A DNA stretch of 32,712 nucleotides from Candidatus Peregrinibacteria bacterium (GTDB taxonomy: Bacteria > Patescibacteriota > Gracilibacteria > Peribacterales > Peribacteraceae), in assembly GCA_016196295.1 (NCBI GenBank), contig JACPYA010000052.1, forward strand, positions 1-32,712, in the 5' to 3' direction. The notes beneath the pieces are model-generated. The model ran no database searches. It saw only the letters and a list, made by a program, of their open reading frames with translations, and was not told where the DNA came from. Positions 6,967 to 15,205 of this stretch are shown piece by piece. A program made the translations under genes and the position numbers. Position 1 is the stretch's first letter. Each line of letters opens with the position of its first letter.

Positions 6967-8274
6967 TCAATTTTTTGTTCCGTTCTTGCGATTGCCGAGC
7001 GAATGAAAGATGTCCGTGGCGATTTCGTACTTGAATGAATGAACCGAGCCGTCGCACATTGCCATGTTCATCGTCGATGGGTGGGCACCGCCATAGATGT
7101 AGAAATTCTGATATCCCGGCCGGTCTCGCAGCGGTCCCTCGATCCCCGGCATGACGAAGCGGATCGTGTCGGGATTATCTCCTGAATAAAGTGTTTCGTT
7201 GTCCCCCCAGTCCACGCCATCCTCGTAATGATCCGGATTGACGTATTTTTCTCCAGCCAGGAACACATTGGACATGCCATCGAGCACGTCACTATCTCGG
7301 AATTCCGATGCGACCCCGATAACTCCCGTCAGCAGGTTTGACGCTTGTTTCCATGCTCCCCAGTTGAGACCGGACGGGTAATCGGCCGGTCCCGCGTACG
7401 AATATCCCGCATGGGGCGCCCCGATGTACAGGTCCCCTCCATTGGCCGCGTAGTTGGAGCGCGCGACGATCTCCGTGTGAGAGGCGTAGTACGGCTCGCG
7501 AAAGTGGGGAGACCAGTTTTCCGTTTGGTACGCGAGCGGCGCTCTGCGCGTTGGGCAATTCATGACGGAGAGAGGGGTCGCGATCATCGTCTTCGCGGCA
7601 TCGGCTTTTGGGACACCGGCTAGCCCCAACTGCAGGTCATGCAGAGATTCTTGTTCCAAATACGGGAGCACGTTGAATTGCCAGCTACCGGGTTGGCGCC
7701 AATCATTTCCTTTCTCGGGATCGCCAATCCACGCGTAGCCCCACCCTCCGCACGGAAATCGACCCGTCGCGGATAGATGATGATGAACTCCAAGGCCGAG
7801 CTGACGGAGATTATTCTTGCATTGGGTGTTGCGGGCGGACTCTCTTGCTGCTTGGATCGCCGGGAGGAGTAGTGCGATGAGGATGCCGATGATGCCAGTC
7901 ACGACGAGGAGTTCCGTGAGTGTGAAACCCTTGCGAGTTTCCGGAGACCACTCTGTGGTCACGCGAACGTCGAGCTCCTCGTTTCCACGCGGCGGCTTCC
8001 AAATGTCCTCCAGACGGAGCGTCTGTAGGGTCGTATTAAGTATGCCCCCTACGAGGGTTCCATTGACGTGGAACTGCACTTCGTCCTTGTTCTTCGTCAC
8101 CATTACCTTGTACGCACCGGTCGCCTCTATTGTTGTGCTCACTTGCTCTGCTGCCCTCTCGAGAGTTTCAGACGTCCATTGCCTGTAGTCTTGTTGCGTC
8201 TTTTGGACGTGCGATGGGGAGAACCGTCCTTCGAGAGAAGGATCGATGATATGCTCGAGAGAAGAAAGCGTCAT
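6967..8274 (-). CDS. DUF1559-type pseudopilin-like protein with N-terminal extension
   Basis: Residues 115-145 form a type IV pilin/pseudopilin signal: [35 protein letters not shown], with Gly-Phe and Glu at +5. A long DUF1559 domain follows ([27 protein letters not shown], near the end [13 protein letters not shown]). This family is best known from Planctomycetes. The product should be membrane-anchored after prepilin peptidase cleavage. Odd feature: about 114 residues precede the cleavage site where leaders normally have 6-30. They look like a separate mixed alpha/beta segment. The ATG at 8274 sits about 21 bases below a TTGCTT/TACTAT promoter. An internal GTG (codon 105, with GAGGAG 12 bases upstream) would give a normal leader. 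Confidence 0.8.
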
Positions 8275-8301
8275 GAACCCAAGGGAAAATTGGGAGCAAT
8301 C

Positions 8302-8331
8302 ATAGTACAGATCGAAAATTTTACCAAGCAA
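8302..8331 (-). promoter_or_regulatory. promoter of the DUF1559 gene
   Basis: Minus strand: TACTAT at 8302-8307 preceded by TG, with TTGCTT about 18 bases further upstream. The predicted start near 8295 leaves a 21-base leader before ATG 8274. Confidence 0.5.
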
Positions 8332-9897: not shown

Positions 9898-10170
9898 ATG
9901 ACGAAGACCGTCACCGCATCAGAGGCAAGGAACAATTTTTTTGCCATTCTGCAGGAAGTAAAAACTCCCGGGGTCTCCGTGATGATCACGCATGAAGGTC
10001 ACCCTGCCGGCGTCTTGATGTCTGCCGAGGAGTTCGAGGGCTTGATGGAGACGTTGGATATCATGTCTGATCCTGAGGAGGCTGCTGAGATTCTTGATGC
10101 ATTGCGTCACAAAGATACGGAAGAAACGGTGACTCTCGACGAGCTGAAGAAGGATCTCGGCCTCGCATGA
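9898..10170 (+). CDS. Phd/YefM-family antitoxin
   Basis: A 90-residue protein with the Phd/YefM start pattern (MTKTVTASEARNNFFAILQEV, then VMITHEGHPAGVLMSAEEFEGLMETLDIMSDPE). The N-terminal half should dimerise and bind the operon promoter; the acidic C-terminal helix (KDTEETVTLDELKKDLGLA) should wrap and block the toxin. Its TGA overlaps the toxin ATG by four bases, so the two are translationally coupled. The start is fixed by the TATAAT six bases upstream. It lies immediately upstream of the diversity-generating retroelement; whether the pair helps retain that element is inference only. Confidence 0.9.
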   Translation: MTKTVTASEARNNFFAILQEVKTPGVSVMITHEGHPAGVLMSAEEFEGLMETLDIMSDPEEAAEILDALRHKDTEETVTLDELKKDLGLA

Positions 10171-10427
10171 CCATGATATACAGGGTCATTATCCTTGCAC
10201 GCGCAAAAAAGCAGTTGAGCAAGCTTCCACCTAAAGAACAGCGGCGTATCGTGCAGGCACTTGCTTCTTTAGAGACTGATCCATTTCGAGGCAAGCAGTT
10301 GCATGGAGATTATGAAGGGGCGTGGGCCATCCGTGTCTGGCCTTACCGTATCATTTATACGATAAAAAAGGAGCTCGTGACTGTGACGGTTGTGAGGATC
10401 GGGCACAGGAAGGATGTCTATCGATAG
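10167..10427 (+). CDS. RelE/ParE-superfamily toxin
   Basis: An 86-residue basic protein: YRVIILARAKKQLSKLPPKEQRRIVQALASLETDP, then GAWAIRVWPYRIIYTIKKE and the final VTVVRIGHRKDVYR. The fold pattern (strand, two helices, then strands with R-x-x-x-Y-R-I-x-Y and the closing GHRKDVY) is that of RelE-type mRNA interferases that cut mRNA in the ribosomal A site. The Arg and terminal Tyr residues used by RelE enzymes are present. It follows its antitoxin with an ATGA overlap. RelE versus ParE function (ribosome or gyrase target) cannot be told apart from this reading, although the R-x-G-H-R-x-x-x-Y end favours RelE. Confidence 0.9.
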   Translation: MTMIYRVIILARAKKQLSKLPPKEQRRIVQALASLETDPFRGKQLHGDYEGAWAIRVWPYRIIYTIKKELVTVTVVRIGHRKDVYR

Positions 10428-10429
10428 AC

Positions 10430-10457
10430 TTGACTTTTATTCCAAAAAAAGTATTAT
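10430..10457 (+). promoter_or_regulatory. sigma-70 promoter of the DGR target gene
   Basis: TTGACT (10430-10435), a 16-base spacer, then TATTAT (10452-10457); a second TATTAT at 10455-10460 overlaps. The start near 10464 gives a leader of about 140 bases, in contrast to the leaderless genes around it. Confidence 0.65.
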
Positions 10458-10500
10458 TATATTTAGATGTTCTTTGAGAGCATCGTCAAGATTTGAAAGT

Positions 10501-10545
10501 GAGGCAAGCATTGTGGGCACGCCTTGTGCCCAGAATGCTTGCCTC
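10501..10545 (+). promoter_or_regulatory. long hairpin in the leader of the DGR target gene
   Basis: GAGGCAAGCAT (10501-10511) pairs with ATGCTTGCCTC (10535-10545). Inside it, TGGGCAC (10514-10520) pairs with GTGCCCA (10526-10532), separated by two-base internal loops and a five-base apical loop. No T-run follows, so it is not a simple terminator. It may stabilise or regulate the mRNA, or be an inserted palindromic repeat. Confidence 0.5.
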
Positions 10546-10605
10546 ATTCCTGAGCAGCACCGAGCCGGCGGATCCGGTTTCTTCAGCTCCCGAAAGGAGT
10601 TCGTC

Positions 10606-11286
10606 ATGAGTATCAGTTTGAAGCGCCTTGAGAGAAAGAAGCTCAATCTCGGCATGGATAAGCTGGGATCGGCCGGGATCGATGTCGAACGGTGGCTTGC
10701 CATGGTCGACGCCGATGAGCAAACGATGAAGGAGCTCGTCGCGGCATGGCCGAAGCTCCTGCCATCCTTCACGTACGACGCCGTCGCGTTGTTTGGTTTC
10801 GGAGAACCGAGCAAAGACCCGCTCCCAAAACCCCGCCCCGGCGAAATCGTGATCCGCGTCGGCGATTGGTCTTTGGCCGATCTGCTCAACTGTCCGCTGA
10901 TCGTTCGCAAAAACCTGTTTTGGCAACAGGACTGGTACCACGGATATCCCTGGGTCGGCGAGAAAATGCGGGCCGGCATCTACCGCGTCCGCATGCCGAT
11001 TCCCGACTCGAACCGGAAGACCGCGCCGGAGCAGGAGAAGCTTTTCCTGCACGGTGAGGATTTCGTGTCGGTCTGTCTGGGCGCAACGACCCTTGCGGCG
11101 CATCTCCATGAAACGGGGCAAGATCTCCTGAATGGGGATTGGACTCGCTGCAAGGAGCGCTCCTCGGGCGGCGTCCGCGCCGGGCTGGTCGTGCACGAGG
11201 GTCGCGTGTACCTCGGCGGCCGCTGGGATGGCCTCCACCACGGCTACGTGTGGGCGTCGTCCGCTCGGGAGGCTTCCGAATCTTGA
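10606..11286 (+). CDS. DGR target protein with C-terminal variable region
   Basis: This 226-residue protein is diversified by the adjacent retroelement. Residues from about 186 to the end are encoded by the variable repeat, which matches the template repeat at a constant offset of 460 bases. The end GRWDGLHHGYVWASSAR resembles the C-type-lectin-like variable domains of DGR targets. The preceding part (RVGDWSLADLLNCPLIVRKN, YPWVGEKMRAGIYRVRMPIP) fits the constant scaffold. No signal peptide, lipobox or membrane helix is visible, so the product looks cytosolic or escorted by a partner. The ATG at 10606 is preferred over a longer in-frame extension because AAAGGAG lies seven bases upstream, a real Shine-Dalgarno site. 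The ligand is unknown. Confidence 0.85.
   Translation: MSISLKRLERKKLNLGMDKLGSAGIDVERWLAMVDADEQTMKELVAAWPKLLPSFTYDAVALFGFGEPSKDPLPKPRPGEIVIRVGDWSLADLLNCPLIVRKNLFWQQDWYHGYPWVGEKMRAGIYRVRMPIPDSNRKTAPEQEKLFLHGEDFVSVCLGATTLAAHLHETGQDLLNGDWTRCKERSSGGVRAGLVVHEGRVYLGGRWDGLHHGYVWASSAREASES
11161..11269 (+). repeat. DGR variable repeat (VR)
   Basis: Aligns without gaps to the template repeat at 11621-11729 (offset 460). Sixteen of 22 template adenines in 11621-11730 are replaced here, against 10 of 88 other bases. The 14 bases at 11251-11264 (TGGGCGTCGTCCGC) are identical in both copies and free of adenine, fitting the initiation-of-mutagenic-homing site. The three template AAC codons read GTC, GTC and CAC here. 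Confidence 0.9.
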
Positions 11287-11329
11287 GTTCGAAATCTTGA
11301 ATTCCGTGAATTCTTGATCTTCGAACTTT

Positions 11330-11359
11330 GACGGCGTTGCGAAAGCACCGCCGTCGTTT
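11330..11359 (+). other. GAAA-loop hairpin downstream of VR
   Basis: GACGGCG pairs with CGCCGTC around an inner TGC-GAAA-GCA, with one T/C mismatch between stems, then GTTTT. It starts 44 bases after the target stop. DGRs are known to need a GC-rich hairpin with a short GNRA-like loop just downstream of the homing site; the same structure could also be a rho-independent terminator. Both roles are compatible. Confidence 0.7.
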
Positions 11360-11361
11360 TG

Positions 11362-11370
11362 TGATAGCAT
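11362..11370 (+). promoter_or_regulatory. possible promoter for template-repeat RNA
   Basis: TGA-TAGCAT matches an extended -10 element and lies just after the hairpin. The start would be near 11377, about 240 bases before the template repeat. No -35 was found; the call is tentative. Confidence 0.3.
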
Positions 11371-11614
11371 GAAAAGGCATCTCGCTTCTGCAGTTCGGAC
11401 TATGGTTCGCGCTCGCGAATGCCGCTCTTTGAATCGCATCAGAATTCGCGAACCTCCGCGGAACGCGAAGCGCATGCCACGAAGAATGTGAAAGAGAAGG
11501 AAGTCCGTGCTTGTTCCTGGCGGAATCCTCGCATCCTTGATGTGGGGTGCTCCCGAATCAAATACAGCGGTGAGAGTCACTCAAGCCGCAGTGCTAAAGA
11601 AGGGAACAAGTACC

Positions 11615-11729
11615 AAGCGCACCTCGGACGACAACCACGCCGAACTGAACGTGAACGAGGGTCGCGTGCACCTCGACGACGACTGGGATGGCGACCGCAG
11701 CGGCGACCTCTGGGCGTCGTCCGCCCGGC
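11615..11729 (+). other. DGR template repeat (TR)
   Basis: Template copied by the reverse transcriptase into the variable repeat. It is adenine-bearing at codon positions that become variable (AAC, GAC and CAC codons in the frame of the target gene), while the 3' end (TGGGCGTCGTCCGC at 11711-11724) has no adenine. Homology stops at about 11615 on the left and just after 11729 on the right. It lies in a gap of about 460 bases (11287-11746) with no credible protein gene; the open frame across it merely mirrors the target frame. It ends 17 bases before the 3' end of the opposite-strand avd, so its RNA is likely to extend antisense to avd. Confidence 0.9.
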
Positions 11730-11746
11730 ACTTCCTTCTCTCTACT

Positions 11747-12124
11747 TCAAAAGCTCCGCTGGGGGGGCGTGGTGCCGGAAGAGCGAAGCGATTTGATCCA
11801 TCCGCCGAGCATCCGGCCAATTTCGTCGATCAACTGTTGCAGATGAACGGTCTTCTTCATATCCAATACTTTCGTGTCTTTGCGTAATCGTACGAACAGT
11901 CGGAGAAGGTTCAATTTGATGCTCGCTTGTTCCAAGTGGGCCAGTTTTCCATTCTTTGGCGATTGTCCTGCTGAGAGGATGTCCTCGAGAATGTCGAGGA
12001 TCACGTTTTCCGCCCGCTGCCACAGCGTATAGCGGTCGGCTTTCGGGACAAGCGCGCGCCATCCATGGAATGCCTTGTAGAGTTCGTAGCTCTTCTTAAG
12101 AATGGGAATGTCCAGTTCTTCCAT
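11747..12124 (-). CDS. avd: DGR accessory protein Avd (four-helix bundle)
   Basis: The 125 residues form the helical pattern of the Avd/IVP-type superfamily: ILKKSYELYKAFHGWRALVPKADRYTLWQRAENVILDILEDIL, then KLAHLEQASIKLNLLRLFVRLRKDTKVLDMKKTVHLQQLIDEIGRMLGGWIKSL. Avd proteins form basic pentameric barrels that bind the RT and the TR RNA and are needed for mutagenic cDNA synthesis. Basic residues are plentiful, as expected. Here avd is on the strand opposite to TR and RT, with its start 11 bases from the RT start and its stop 17 bases from TR. The C-terminal tail (RSSGTTPPQRSF) is low in structure. No Shine-Dalgarno site is present. Confidence 0.9.
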   Translation of the reverse strand: MEELDIPILKKSYELYKAFHGWRALVPKADRYTLWQRAENVILDILEDILSAGQSPKNGKLAHLEQASIKLNLLRLFVRLRKDTKVLDMKKTVHLQQLIDEIGRMLGGWIKSLRSSGTTPPQRSF

Positions 12125-12135
12125 AGTAAAAAAGC

Positions 12136-13338
12136 ATGAAAGTGCATCACTCTATCTTCGATCGCCTCGTTTCGCCAGAGAGTCTGTTTTCCGCTTGGGA
12201 GGAGTTCAAGAAGGGGAAAACATCGCGTCGGGATGTAGAGCACTTTGAATGTCATCTTGAAGAAAGTCTCTTTGCGTTGCAGCGTGAACTCGCATCCGGA
12301 ATGTACCGACACTGTTCCTACAGCGCATTTACCATTTGCGATCCGAAGCAGCGGCAAATGCACAAAGCGACGGTCCGCGACCGAGTGGTTCATCATGCCG
12401 TCTTCTCTGTCTTGAACCCCATCTTCGAGCCTCTATTCATCGCGCATTCGTATTCCTGCCGCAAAGGAAAGGGGACGCATAAAGGCGTGGATGCATTGGA
12501 GTCGATGCTTCGGAAAGTCAGTCGCAACGGCACGCGGCCCTGCTTCGCTCTCAAGTGCGACATTCATCGATTCTTTGGGTCCGTGGATCATGAGATCCTC
12601 GTCGATCTGTTCGCTCAAAGAATCGAAGATAAGCGAATAATGGCTCTTCTCCGGGAGATCGTCGCGAGTTTTTCATGGAACGGAAACGGGAAAGGAATTC
12701 CCATCGGCAATCTCACGTCGCAACTCTTCGCCAATGTATATATGAATGAATTTGATCAGTATATGAAGCATGTCCTGAAGATTCCACACTTCATTCGTTA
12801 TACGGATGACTTCGTCATCATTTCTGAAAATGAAGGTGATCTTCGCGCTCTTTTGCCTGCCATTCAGTCCCATCTCCACGATCGATTGCGGCTACAACTC
12901 CATCCTCACAAAGTGATGATCCGGAAATTCCGTCAGGGCATCGATTTCTTGGGATATGTCGTCCTGCCGCACCATCGGATGCTTCGCACGAAGACGAAGC
13001 GGCGAATATTTCGCAAACTCCGCGAAAAAGAAGCGACATGCGCGCGAGATCCACTCCGACGGGAATCCTTTGGGCAAACGCTTCAGTCCTATCTGGGCGT
13101 TCTCTCCCATGCGAATGCTCACCGATTTGAGCGAGGATTTGAAGAATCGATTCTTCGTCAGCCGATCATGAGGCCTTCGGCGCTTCCGGCGCCGGGTTCG
13201 CCACGGCACCTGCTGCGTCCTGCGGCGGTTTTAGCTCAGGTGTTTCGATCTTCCCCTGAGCACGCAGCGCAGCGATGTCTTCTTTCTTCGCGGCGATCAT
13301 CTGCTTCTGCGCCAGGACTTCCTCCGGCTTCGTCGTGA
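12136..13338 (+). CDS. DGR reverse transcriptase
   Basis: Retroelement-type reverse transcriptase that copies TR RNA into adenine-mutagenised cDNA. Visible RT motifs: RDRVVHHAVFSVLNPIFEPLFIAHSYSCRKGKGTHKG, CDIHRFFGSVDHEIL (catalytic Asp), GIPIGNLTSQLFANVYMNEFD (the DGR-type GNxxSQ motif), YTDD at 222-225 with two catalytic Asp residues, and FLGYVV. There is no maturase or endonuclease domain, as usual for DGRs. The natural fold should end near SYLGVLSHANAHRFERGFEESIL (codon about 340). The remaining 55-60 codons are antisense to the virB4 3' end (overlap 13166-13338) and have no RT-like sequence, so the native stop may have been lost. Start ATG is 11 bases from avd on the other strand. Confidence 0.93.
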   Translation: MKVHHSIFDRLVSPESLFSAWEEFKKGKTSRRDVEHFECHLEESLFALQRELASGMYRHCSYSAFTICDPKQRQMHKATVRDRVVHHAVFSVLNPIFEPLFIAHSYSCRKGKGTHKGVDALESMLRKVSRNGTRPCFALKCDIHRFFGSVDHEILVDLFAQRIEDKRIMALLREIVASFSWNGNGKGIPIGNLTSQLFANVYMNEFDQYMKHVLKIPHFIRYTDDFVIISENEGDLRALLPAIQSHLHDRLRLQLHPHKVMIRKFRQGIDFLGYVVLPHHRMLRTKTKRRIFRKLREKEATCARDPLRRESFGQTLQSYLGVLSHANAHRFERGFEESILRQPIMRPSALPAPGSPRHLLRPAAVLAQVFRSSPEHAAQRCLLSSRRSSASAPGLPPASS

Positions 13339-15178
13339 TGACCTTCGCTTCGTCGGGGCTCGCGACGATCTGGATCGCGACGTGTTTGTTGCCGGCGAAG
13401 AAGATGCCCTGTCCGATGCCGGAGTTGAGGAGCACGTACTTTTCCCCATCCGTCAGGTAGAAGAGTTTCTGCAGCTGATCGACGGCGGTGGGGGATTGCT
13501 TGAGGAGAATCTGGAGCGCGGAGTTCGTGATGATCGGCTTGCCGTACGGCGAGTTCACGAAGTCCTCGATGTCCTGGGTGATGGTCGTGATGCCGAGGAA
13601 GTACTTGCGGGCGCGCTTCACGATGCCGTAGAGGAAGCGGGCGCTGTCCTCGTGCTGCATCAGGTTCCACGCTTCGTCGATGCAGAGGAACCTCTTCTTC
13701 AAGTTGCTGCGGATGCGGTTCCAGAGGAAGTTCAAGACGATGTAGATCGCGATGGGACGGAGTTGTTCCTCCAGGTCGCGGATCTGGAACACGACCATCT
13801 GTTTGTCGAGCTCGACGTTCGTCTTCTGGTCGAAGAGTCCCGCGTAGCTTCCTTCCGTGTACTTCTGGAGGATCTTCGCCATATTCTCGCCGCCCTGCGT
13901 CGTCATCAGCACATCGACGAGGTCGTGCATGGTCGGCACTTCCATCGTCATGGGGTCCGCGGTCTGGAGCGTGATGCCGTGGAGCGCGTACGTATCGAGG
14001 ATCGCTTTGTCGAGAACCCCGTCCTCGGCCGGGGTCAGCGTGCCGAGCATCAGCTTGAACAGGCCGTGCAGGTTGATGACCGCGGCACGGAGCACTTCGC
14101 CGACCTCCGCGTCTTCCCCGCGCACCGCCTGCGGCAGGTCGAAGGGATTGATGCGGAACGAGCTCTGGAGCGACATGGGCACGAACGAGCCGCCGACGGT
14201 CTTGCAGAGCTCGACGTATTCGTTTTCCGGGTCGATGACGAGGACTTCCGTCCCGAACATGAGCGCCCGGAGGATTTCCAGTTTCACGGTGAAGGATTTA
14301 CCCGCGCCGGAGGTGGCGAATACGTTCGCGTTCGCGTTCGGCAGGTCGAACCGGTCGAAGATCACCAGGCTTTCGTTGTGGCGGTTGATGCCGTAGAGGA
14401 TGCCGTGGTCGTCTGTAAGATCCGAACTCGAGAACGGGAAGCTCGTCGCGAGGGGCGAGGTGTTCATGTTGCGGTTGATCTCGAGTTCGTCCAAGCAGAG
14501 CGGCAGGGTGGAGTTCCACGCGTGCTCCATCTGGAACATCGCGGGCTTCGTGAGGACGAGCTTTCCACCGAGGATCGACTCGATGTCTGTCTGGAGCTTT
14601 TTGAGCTTCTCTTCGTTCTCGGCATAGAGCGTCACGTACATGCCAAATTGGAACAGCTTCTCGCGACCGCGCGCGAGGAGGTCCCGGAGTTCCTCGGCGT
14701 CTTGCAGCGCCGCCTCCAGCGCCGGGTCGCGGACGATGCCGCGCTGCTCGAGCATGCGGATGCTGGACCTGAGTTCCGCGACTTTCTTGCGGAGCATCTT
14801 CATGATCGCTTTGTTCGTCGTCGGGTAGATGAATTGGCCGATGTCCATCTGCGCCTCGAAGTTCACAAGCTGGCTGAGCCAGTTCGGATAGATGTAATTC
14901 GGCCAGTTATAGGCATAGAGCGTGCGCGAATGCTGATCGTTCAAAATCACTTCGTTGTTTTTGATCTCCATCGCCGCCGGCGCGATCAGATCGAGCGCTT
15001 TCTGCAGACCTTCCTCGTAGTGTTTCAACGTTTCTCGATCTTCATCCGTGAGTTTCTCTTCCTTCTCGCCCGCCGCTTTCAAGATGACCTCGGCCCTCTT
15101 CTGGAGACCCAGGAGTTCGTCGATCGCAGCGAGGATGACGCTGTGACTCTTCGGCAGGGGAGTGGGATGTACGGGCAT
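13166..15178 (-). CDS. virB4: VirB4-type secretion ATPase
   Basis: Cytoplasmic ATPase of type IV secretion/pilus machinery. About 670 residues: an N-terminal domain with NDQHSRTLYAYNWPNYIYPNWLSQLVNFE, a coiled-coil insertion (KMLRKKVAELRSSIRMLEQRG), Walker A ATSGAGKS (about 288-295), VLVIDPENEYVELCKTVGG, Walker B FLCIDEAWNLM (about 497-507) and the late motif TTITQDIEDFV. All ATPase motifs look intact. The tail is Pro/Ala-rich (PPQDAAGAVANPAPEAPKAS). The ATG at 15178 is used; an in-frame TTG at 15193 is the alternative, and TGC-TATAAT lies at 15206-15214. It probably works with the three pilin-like genes at 522-1927, whose promoter has the same TTCTGCTATAAT core. Its 3' end overlaps the RT frame by 173 bases. 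Confidence 0.93.
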   Translation of the reverse strand: MPVHPTPLPKSHSVILAAIDELLGLQKRAEVILKAAGEKEEKLTDEDRETLKHYEEGLQKALDLIAPAAMEIKNNEVILNDQHSRTLYAYNWPNYIYPNWLSQLVNFEAQMDIGQFIYPTTNKAIMKMLRKKVAELRSSIRMLEQRGIVRDPALEAALQDAEELRDLLARGREKLFQFGMYVTLYAENEEKLKKLQTDIESILGGKLVLTKPAMFQMEHAWNSTLPLCLDELEINRNMNTSPLATSFPFSSSDLTDDHGILYGINRHNESLVIFDRFDLPNANANVFATSGAGKSFTVKLEILRALMFGTEVLVIDPENEYVELCKTVGGSFVPMSLQSSFRINPFDLPQAVRGEDAEVGEVLRAAVINLHGLFKLMLGTLTPAEDGVLDKAILDTYALHGITLQTADPMTMEVPTMHDLVDVLMTTQGGENMAKILQKYTEGSYAGLFDQKTNVELDKQMVVFQIRDLEEQLRPIAIYIVLNFLWNRIRSNLKKRFLCIDEAWNLMQHEDSARFLYGIVKRARKYFLGITTITQDIEDFVNSPYGKPIITNSALQILLKQSPTAVDQLQKLFYLTDGEKYVLLNSGIGQGIFFAGNKHVAIQIVASPDEAKVITTKPEEVLAQKQMIAAKKEDIAALRAQGKIETPELKPPQDAAGAVANPAPEAPKAS

Positions 15179-15205
15179 GAAAAGTAGATTCAATGAATCC
15201 CATTA

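Follow-up and report, generated by a model that had tools for sequence, protein, structure and literature searches.

A diversity-generating retroelement of a CPR clade with avd inverted between TR and the reverse transcriptase gene in a Candidatus Peregrinibacteria genome

Which features of its RNA does a diversity-generating retroelement (DGR) truly need? Mechanistic knowledge of DGRs comes almost wholly from BPP-1, in which the working RNA carries avd sequence before TR and a spacer after TR; a CPR clade that extends over many candidate phyla does not have this layout and yet shows clean adenine mutagenesis, and thus poses the question directly. The locus described here lies in a stretch of 32,712 nt (contig JACPYA010000052.1, positions 1 to 32,712; hereafter the window) from a Candidatus Peregrinibacteria genome of 1.13 Mb that is 85.7% complete, and it is a genuine DGR of a CPR clade with a fixed layout other than that of BPP-1. 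In the reading that we prefer, with a probability of roughly 0.7, avd was inverted once between TR and the reverse transcriptase (RT) gene in this clade, and the TR RNA is ended by a stem-loop. The parts of the element are, in order along the window:

10606 to 11286, plus strand: DGR target gene, 226 aa, with C-terminal VR; an open reading frame with AAAGGAG before its ATG, and with homologous targets at loci L042, L049 and L134
11156 to 11268, plus strand: VR, 78% identical to TR, with adenine-biased differences
11282 to 11331, plus strand: CTTGA-type repeats 3' of VR, a degenerate form of the clade-wide octamer chain
11329 to 11356, plus strand: hairpin downstream of VR with a GAAA loop, which fits the GRNA loop rule for hairpins of phage DGRs (PMC3240598)
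11616 to 11728, plus strand: TR, with 22 adenines and an adenine-poor 3' half
11729 to 11769, plus strand: TR 3' flank with a pyrimidine tract, a G-run and a weak stem, overlapping the avd stop codon
11747 to 12124, minus strand: avd (accessory variability determinant), 125 aa, above the cut-offs of NCBIfam DivGenRetAVD (NF033474; 81.1 bits, cut-off 80) and Pfam bAvd (PF22296; 67.5, cut-off 40)
12125 to 12135, no strand: 11-nt gap separating the start codons of avd and RT, which are divergent genes; read from the sequence
12136 to 13338, plus strand: DGR-type RT open reading frame, with homology to about 13125, a possible one-base frameshift at about 13126-13128, and read-through thereafter

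The initial annotation had proposed a full DGR, with a target gene carrying a C-terminal VR, a TR, avd and a DGR-type RT; all of these are present, far beyond chance. TR and VR, located like the pairs of the other loci by a diagonal scan, are each 113 nt long and 460 nt apart; VR differs at 16 of the 22 TR adenines and at 9 of the 91 other bases (Fisher p 8e-9), and since this bias lies on the plus strand, the TR RNA would have plus sense. The RT matches the PHROG reverse transcriptase family (E 1e-113) and Pfam RVT_1 (E 2e-19), has 8ub7 as its best solved relative by sequence (E 1e-47), and combines YTDD with GNLTSQ, a motif of the (I/L)GNxxSQ type required of DGR RTs. Two other identities were rejected: the PADLOC matches to other RT classes or defence systems reflect general RT similarity only, and the score against the group II RT model TIGR04416 is far below its cut-off. 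The hairpin downstream of VR, a further DGR hallmark, lies in a region with a fold z-score of -5.2; no known RNA family was matched. The target protein shows no known domain, and its structural model (pLDDT 81), with VR at the C-terminus, gave weak C-type-lectin-like Foldseek matches, none with E < 0.001. Position 10430, where the element had been taken to begin, shows only a promoter-like match; the target gene starts at the ATG at 10606. The possibility that TR is what remains of the 3' end of a second, duplicated copy of a target gene was discarded, as the own-genome match upstream of TR is carried by TR itself and the DNA upstream of TR in that match is no better than shuffled sequence. 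A 21-nt stretch upstream of TR (11366-11386) is similar (81%) to 12133-12153, where the RT gene begins, possibly by chance.

The window shares with BPP-1 (mtd-avd-TR-brt) the four parts, the adenine-biased TR/VR differences, the C-terminal VR and a GRNA-type hairpin after VR. In BPP-1, avd lies upstream on the same strand; in the window it is inverted between TR and RT, on the minus strand with TR and RT on the plus strand, as the initial annotation had stated. The 144-nt spacer between TR and brt, a structured element that recruits RT-Avd in BPP-1 (PMC12875486), is replaced in the window by a short TR flank followed by the end of avd; in the CPR clade generally, avd fills the position of the BPP-1 spacer. 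A further difference from BPP-1 is the presence of octamer repeats after VR.

The gene order had been called unusual, and compared to BPP-1 and phage-type DGRs it is; as an oddity of this one locus the claim fails. A search for the same avd orientation among relatives covered a CPR set of 98 loci: the window itself, 20 stretches taken from genomes related to it, and 80 named contigs, with 3 duplicates removed. In 91 of the 98, avd is opposite and head-to-head with RT (median of 28 nt between profile-matched avd and RT starts); five of the others have no avd in the stretch examined, and two are rearranged. Among the 78 CPR loci with an identified TR, 77 carry it on the same strand as RT, and the distance from its end to the stop codon of avd has a median of 23.5 nt. 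At L042 the RT is separated, yet TR and avd are still convergent. Of 80 IMG/VR loci, 67, of phage type, all have avd upstream on the RT strand, as in BPP-1, with TR-to-RT distances of mostly 100-225 nt; where avd is inverted in an IMG/VR locus, that locus is among the closest to the CPR RTs. On a 93-row RT tree that includes BPP-1 and phage RTs, the window's RT groups with CPR RTs, in agreement with the CPR origin suggested earlier, and the tree requires one single orientation change, on a branch with support 99; the layout is therefore an old clade trait. The window fits this inverted-avd clade, with its RT inside the clade, avd head-to-head with RT, and TR convergent with avd. The 11-nt gap between the avd and RT start codons is too short for promoters, which places the start signals of each gene inside the coding sequence of the other.

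Two surveys of CPR and other DGRs, by Paul et al. in 2017 and Wu et al. in 2018, reportedly cover a large number of CPR elements together with their architectures. No description of an inverted avd was found in the open-access literature, a scope outside which these two key surveys fall, and the layout may already be on record. The DiGReF survey, in the sections available, notes that RT and TR need not form one transcription unit, and describes rare inversions of RT relative to TR or VR but no inverted avd (PMC3521204). From its grouping with CPR RTs only, the DGR of the window probably belongs to clade 2 of Roux et al. (2021); the available text on this clade restricts it to Patescibacteria, characterizes its targets as typically without recognisable domains, and does not mention avd (PMC8144416).

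By analogy with BPP-1, a complex of RT and Avd would copy the TR RNA with adenine errors, and the resulting cDNA would overwrite VR and alter the target protein at its C-terminus. TR of the CPR clade lies outside any avd-TR-RT operon and points at the end of avd. A strong stem-loop, defined by a score reaching 18, starts about 12 nt after TR in 65 of 76 CPR loci, compared to 9 of 76 for a control stretch taken from within avd. It extends to about 11 nt past the stop codon of avd, and a T-run accompanies 41 of the 65 stem-loops on the TR strand and 4 in the avd sense. In phage-type loci such a stem follows TR in 24 of 63 cases, and a T-run in 0 of 63. In a set of 15 loci picked for a similar gap, 11 of the 13 pairs of the stem-loop show compensatory changes, and both sides changed in 39 cells, where shuffles gave 13 and slid versions no more than 13. 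With a stem-loop, often with a T-run, just after TR, the 3' end of the TR RNA probably lies close to the stop codon of avd, so that the overlap is mostly with the last avd codons; as a caveat, a T-run hairpin does not equal proof of termination in CPR bacteria. The TR RNA would accordingly be short, separate from other transcripts and closed by a 3' stem-loop of its own, and this stem-loop may take over from the BPP-1 spacer the loading of RT-Avd. The stem-loop is common to most members of the clade, not to all; the window and loci L034, L035, L038 and L046 have a variant flank in which a conserved pyrimidine tract and a G-run cover the last part of avd. The stem that follows TR in the window scores 12.5, which is weak and below the threshold for a strong stem-loop.

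At least three TTGs at 7-9 nt spacing follow VR in 51 of 87 CPR flanks (0.7 expected by shuffling), mostly as chains of imperfect CTTGRnnn octamers that lie ahead of the downstream hairpin; at least three TTGs within 75 nt are found in 75 of 87 CPR flanks vs. 14 of 62 phage-type flanks. Such chains were not seen in phage-type DGRs, and no published description of CTTGA octamer chains after VR was found. In the window, TTGs follow VR at 11283, 11297, 11314 and 11328, and the first CTTGA-type repeat contains the target stop codon. The octamer repeats are a candidate recognition signal. A more far-reaching version of the preferred reading, which we put forward tentatively and at somewhat less than even odds, describes a rewired DGR in CPR bacteria: TR would be transcribed as a free-standing small RNA, its own stem-loop would be the loading and priming platform for RT-Avd in place of the BPP-1 spacer, octamers and hairpin would mark the target, and the single move and inversion of avd would have created convergent TR/avd and divergent avd/RT units. 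From this clade, a compact TR RNA would be available for testing and engineering.

The copy in the window differs from its relatives in condition. It has more non-adenine TR/VR differences than most CPR relatives, which usually have 0-2 (median 0); its nine exceed the tolerance of one published screen (at most 2 per 100 bp), and all nine are in the 3' half (0/39 vs. 9/52, p 0.009). TR has 22 adenines, compared to a median of 31, and relative to the nearest TRs has lost 9-10 adenines in its 3' half, mostly by A to G change, and 1-2 in its 5' half; at five of the nine sites of non-adenine difference, the nearest relatives carry A. The last ~60 codons of the RT open reading frame (about 13130-13338) have no RT homology, and from 13166 onward the frame is antisense to a VirB4/TraG-like gene. 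The RT C-terminus diverges from its relatives near codon 330, and the matching end LSEDLKNRFF is found in another frame at the colinear place; this match is weak (E 0.39), suggests a one-base shift near 13126-13128, and could reflect a sequencing error. Judged from these sequence features, the copy is probably weakly active or decaying. That it is decaying outright, with adenines lost from the 3' half of TR and a frameshifted RT C-terminus, has in our estimate a slightly better than even chance; against it, the enrichment of A-loss over other change is modest (p 0.014-0.089), and avd and the TR flank look intact. Mutagenised cDNA perhaps overwrote the 3' half of TR, or a VR was copied into it, with loss of adenines. 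The window may illustrate DGR wear by TR adenine loss. Among the relatives, the RT open reading frames of L051 and L049 (in genomes G007 and G016) are without internal segments, in L051 including the YTDD part; both loci are probably broken DGRs.

The TR/VR differences would be no sign of decay if the last writing of VR had come in trans, from a second TR absent from the incomplete assembly. A precedent exists in genome G035, where two DGR loci appear to have written into each other's VRs: the VRs of L039 show 2 non-adenine differences from the TR of L041 and 10-12 from their own, and VR1 of L041 shows 3 from the TR of L039 and 12 from its own. Judged by non-adenine differences, this is sequence evidence of retrohoming in trans within G035. 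For the window, trans writing is rather unlikely; no second DGR RT, TR, avd or target was found in its 85.7%-complete genome, and the 5' half of VR matches the local TR with zero non-adenine differences.

The initial annotation had also argued that TR RNA with its 3' flank would be antisense to avd. For the clade, the stem-loop limits this overlap; for the window, with its weak stem, read-through into avd may occur. The stronger proposal, that the TR RNA continues through the spacer antisense to avd and couples the level of Avd to TR transcription, draws on the convergent arrangement of TR and avd in the whole clade, on the weak stem of the window, and on a peak of synonymous constraint close to TR, at avd codons 105-112 (z 7.2 for a diverged subset), which leaves room for a longer TR RNA running into avd. 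Values in RT windows go up to 8.7 and so span this peak; the stem-loop with T-run directly after TR in most relatives speaks against such coupling, as does the lack of a consensus RNA structure within avd on either strand of an 88-sequence codon alignment, the high diversity of which makes this not a strong negative. The coupling proposal is weakened and appears improbable, and termination of the TR RNA by its stem-loop is the preferred reading for the clade. Several relatives (L036, L037, L047, L052) have contigs that break at the DGR or close to it, but a one-off inversion or an assembly artefact of the window is ruled out, with practically no residual probability: 91 loci, drawn from many independent assemblies, share this layout, and it has a single origin on the RT tree.

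The neighborhood of the DGR contains several other features. A Phd/YefM antitoxin and ParE-type toxin pair (9898-10427, plus strand) lies directly upstream of the DGR target, and between the toxin gene and the target an inverted repeat (10500-10546; 21-nt arms, 95% complementary, 5 nt apart) is a possible terminator or regulatory hairpin. On the other side, the VirB4/TraG-like ATPase gene (13166-15193, minus strand) overlaps with its 3' end, tail to tail, the read-through part of the RT open reading frame. Finally, a gene at 6967-8331 (minus strand) combines an N-terminal methylation motif with DUF1559 (Pfam SBP_bac_10, E 1e-36), a domain associated with Planctomycetes, and was possibly acquired by transfer.
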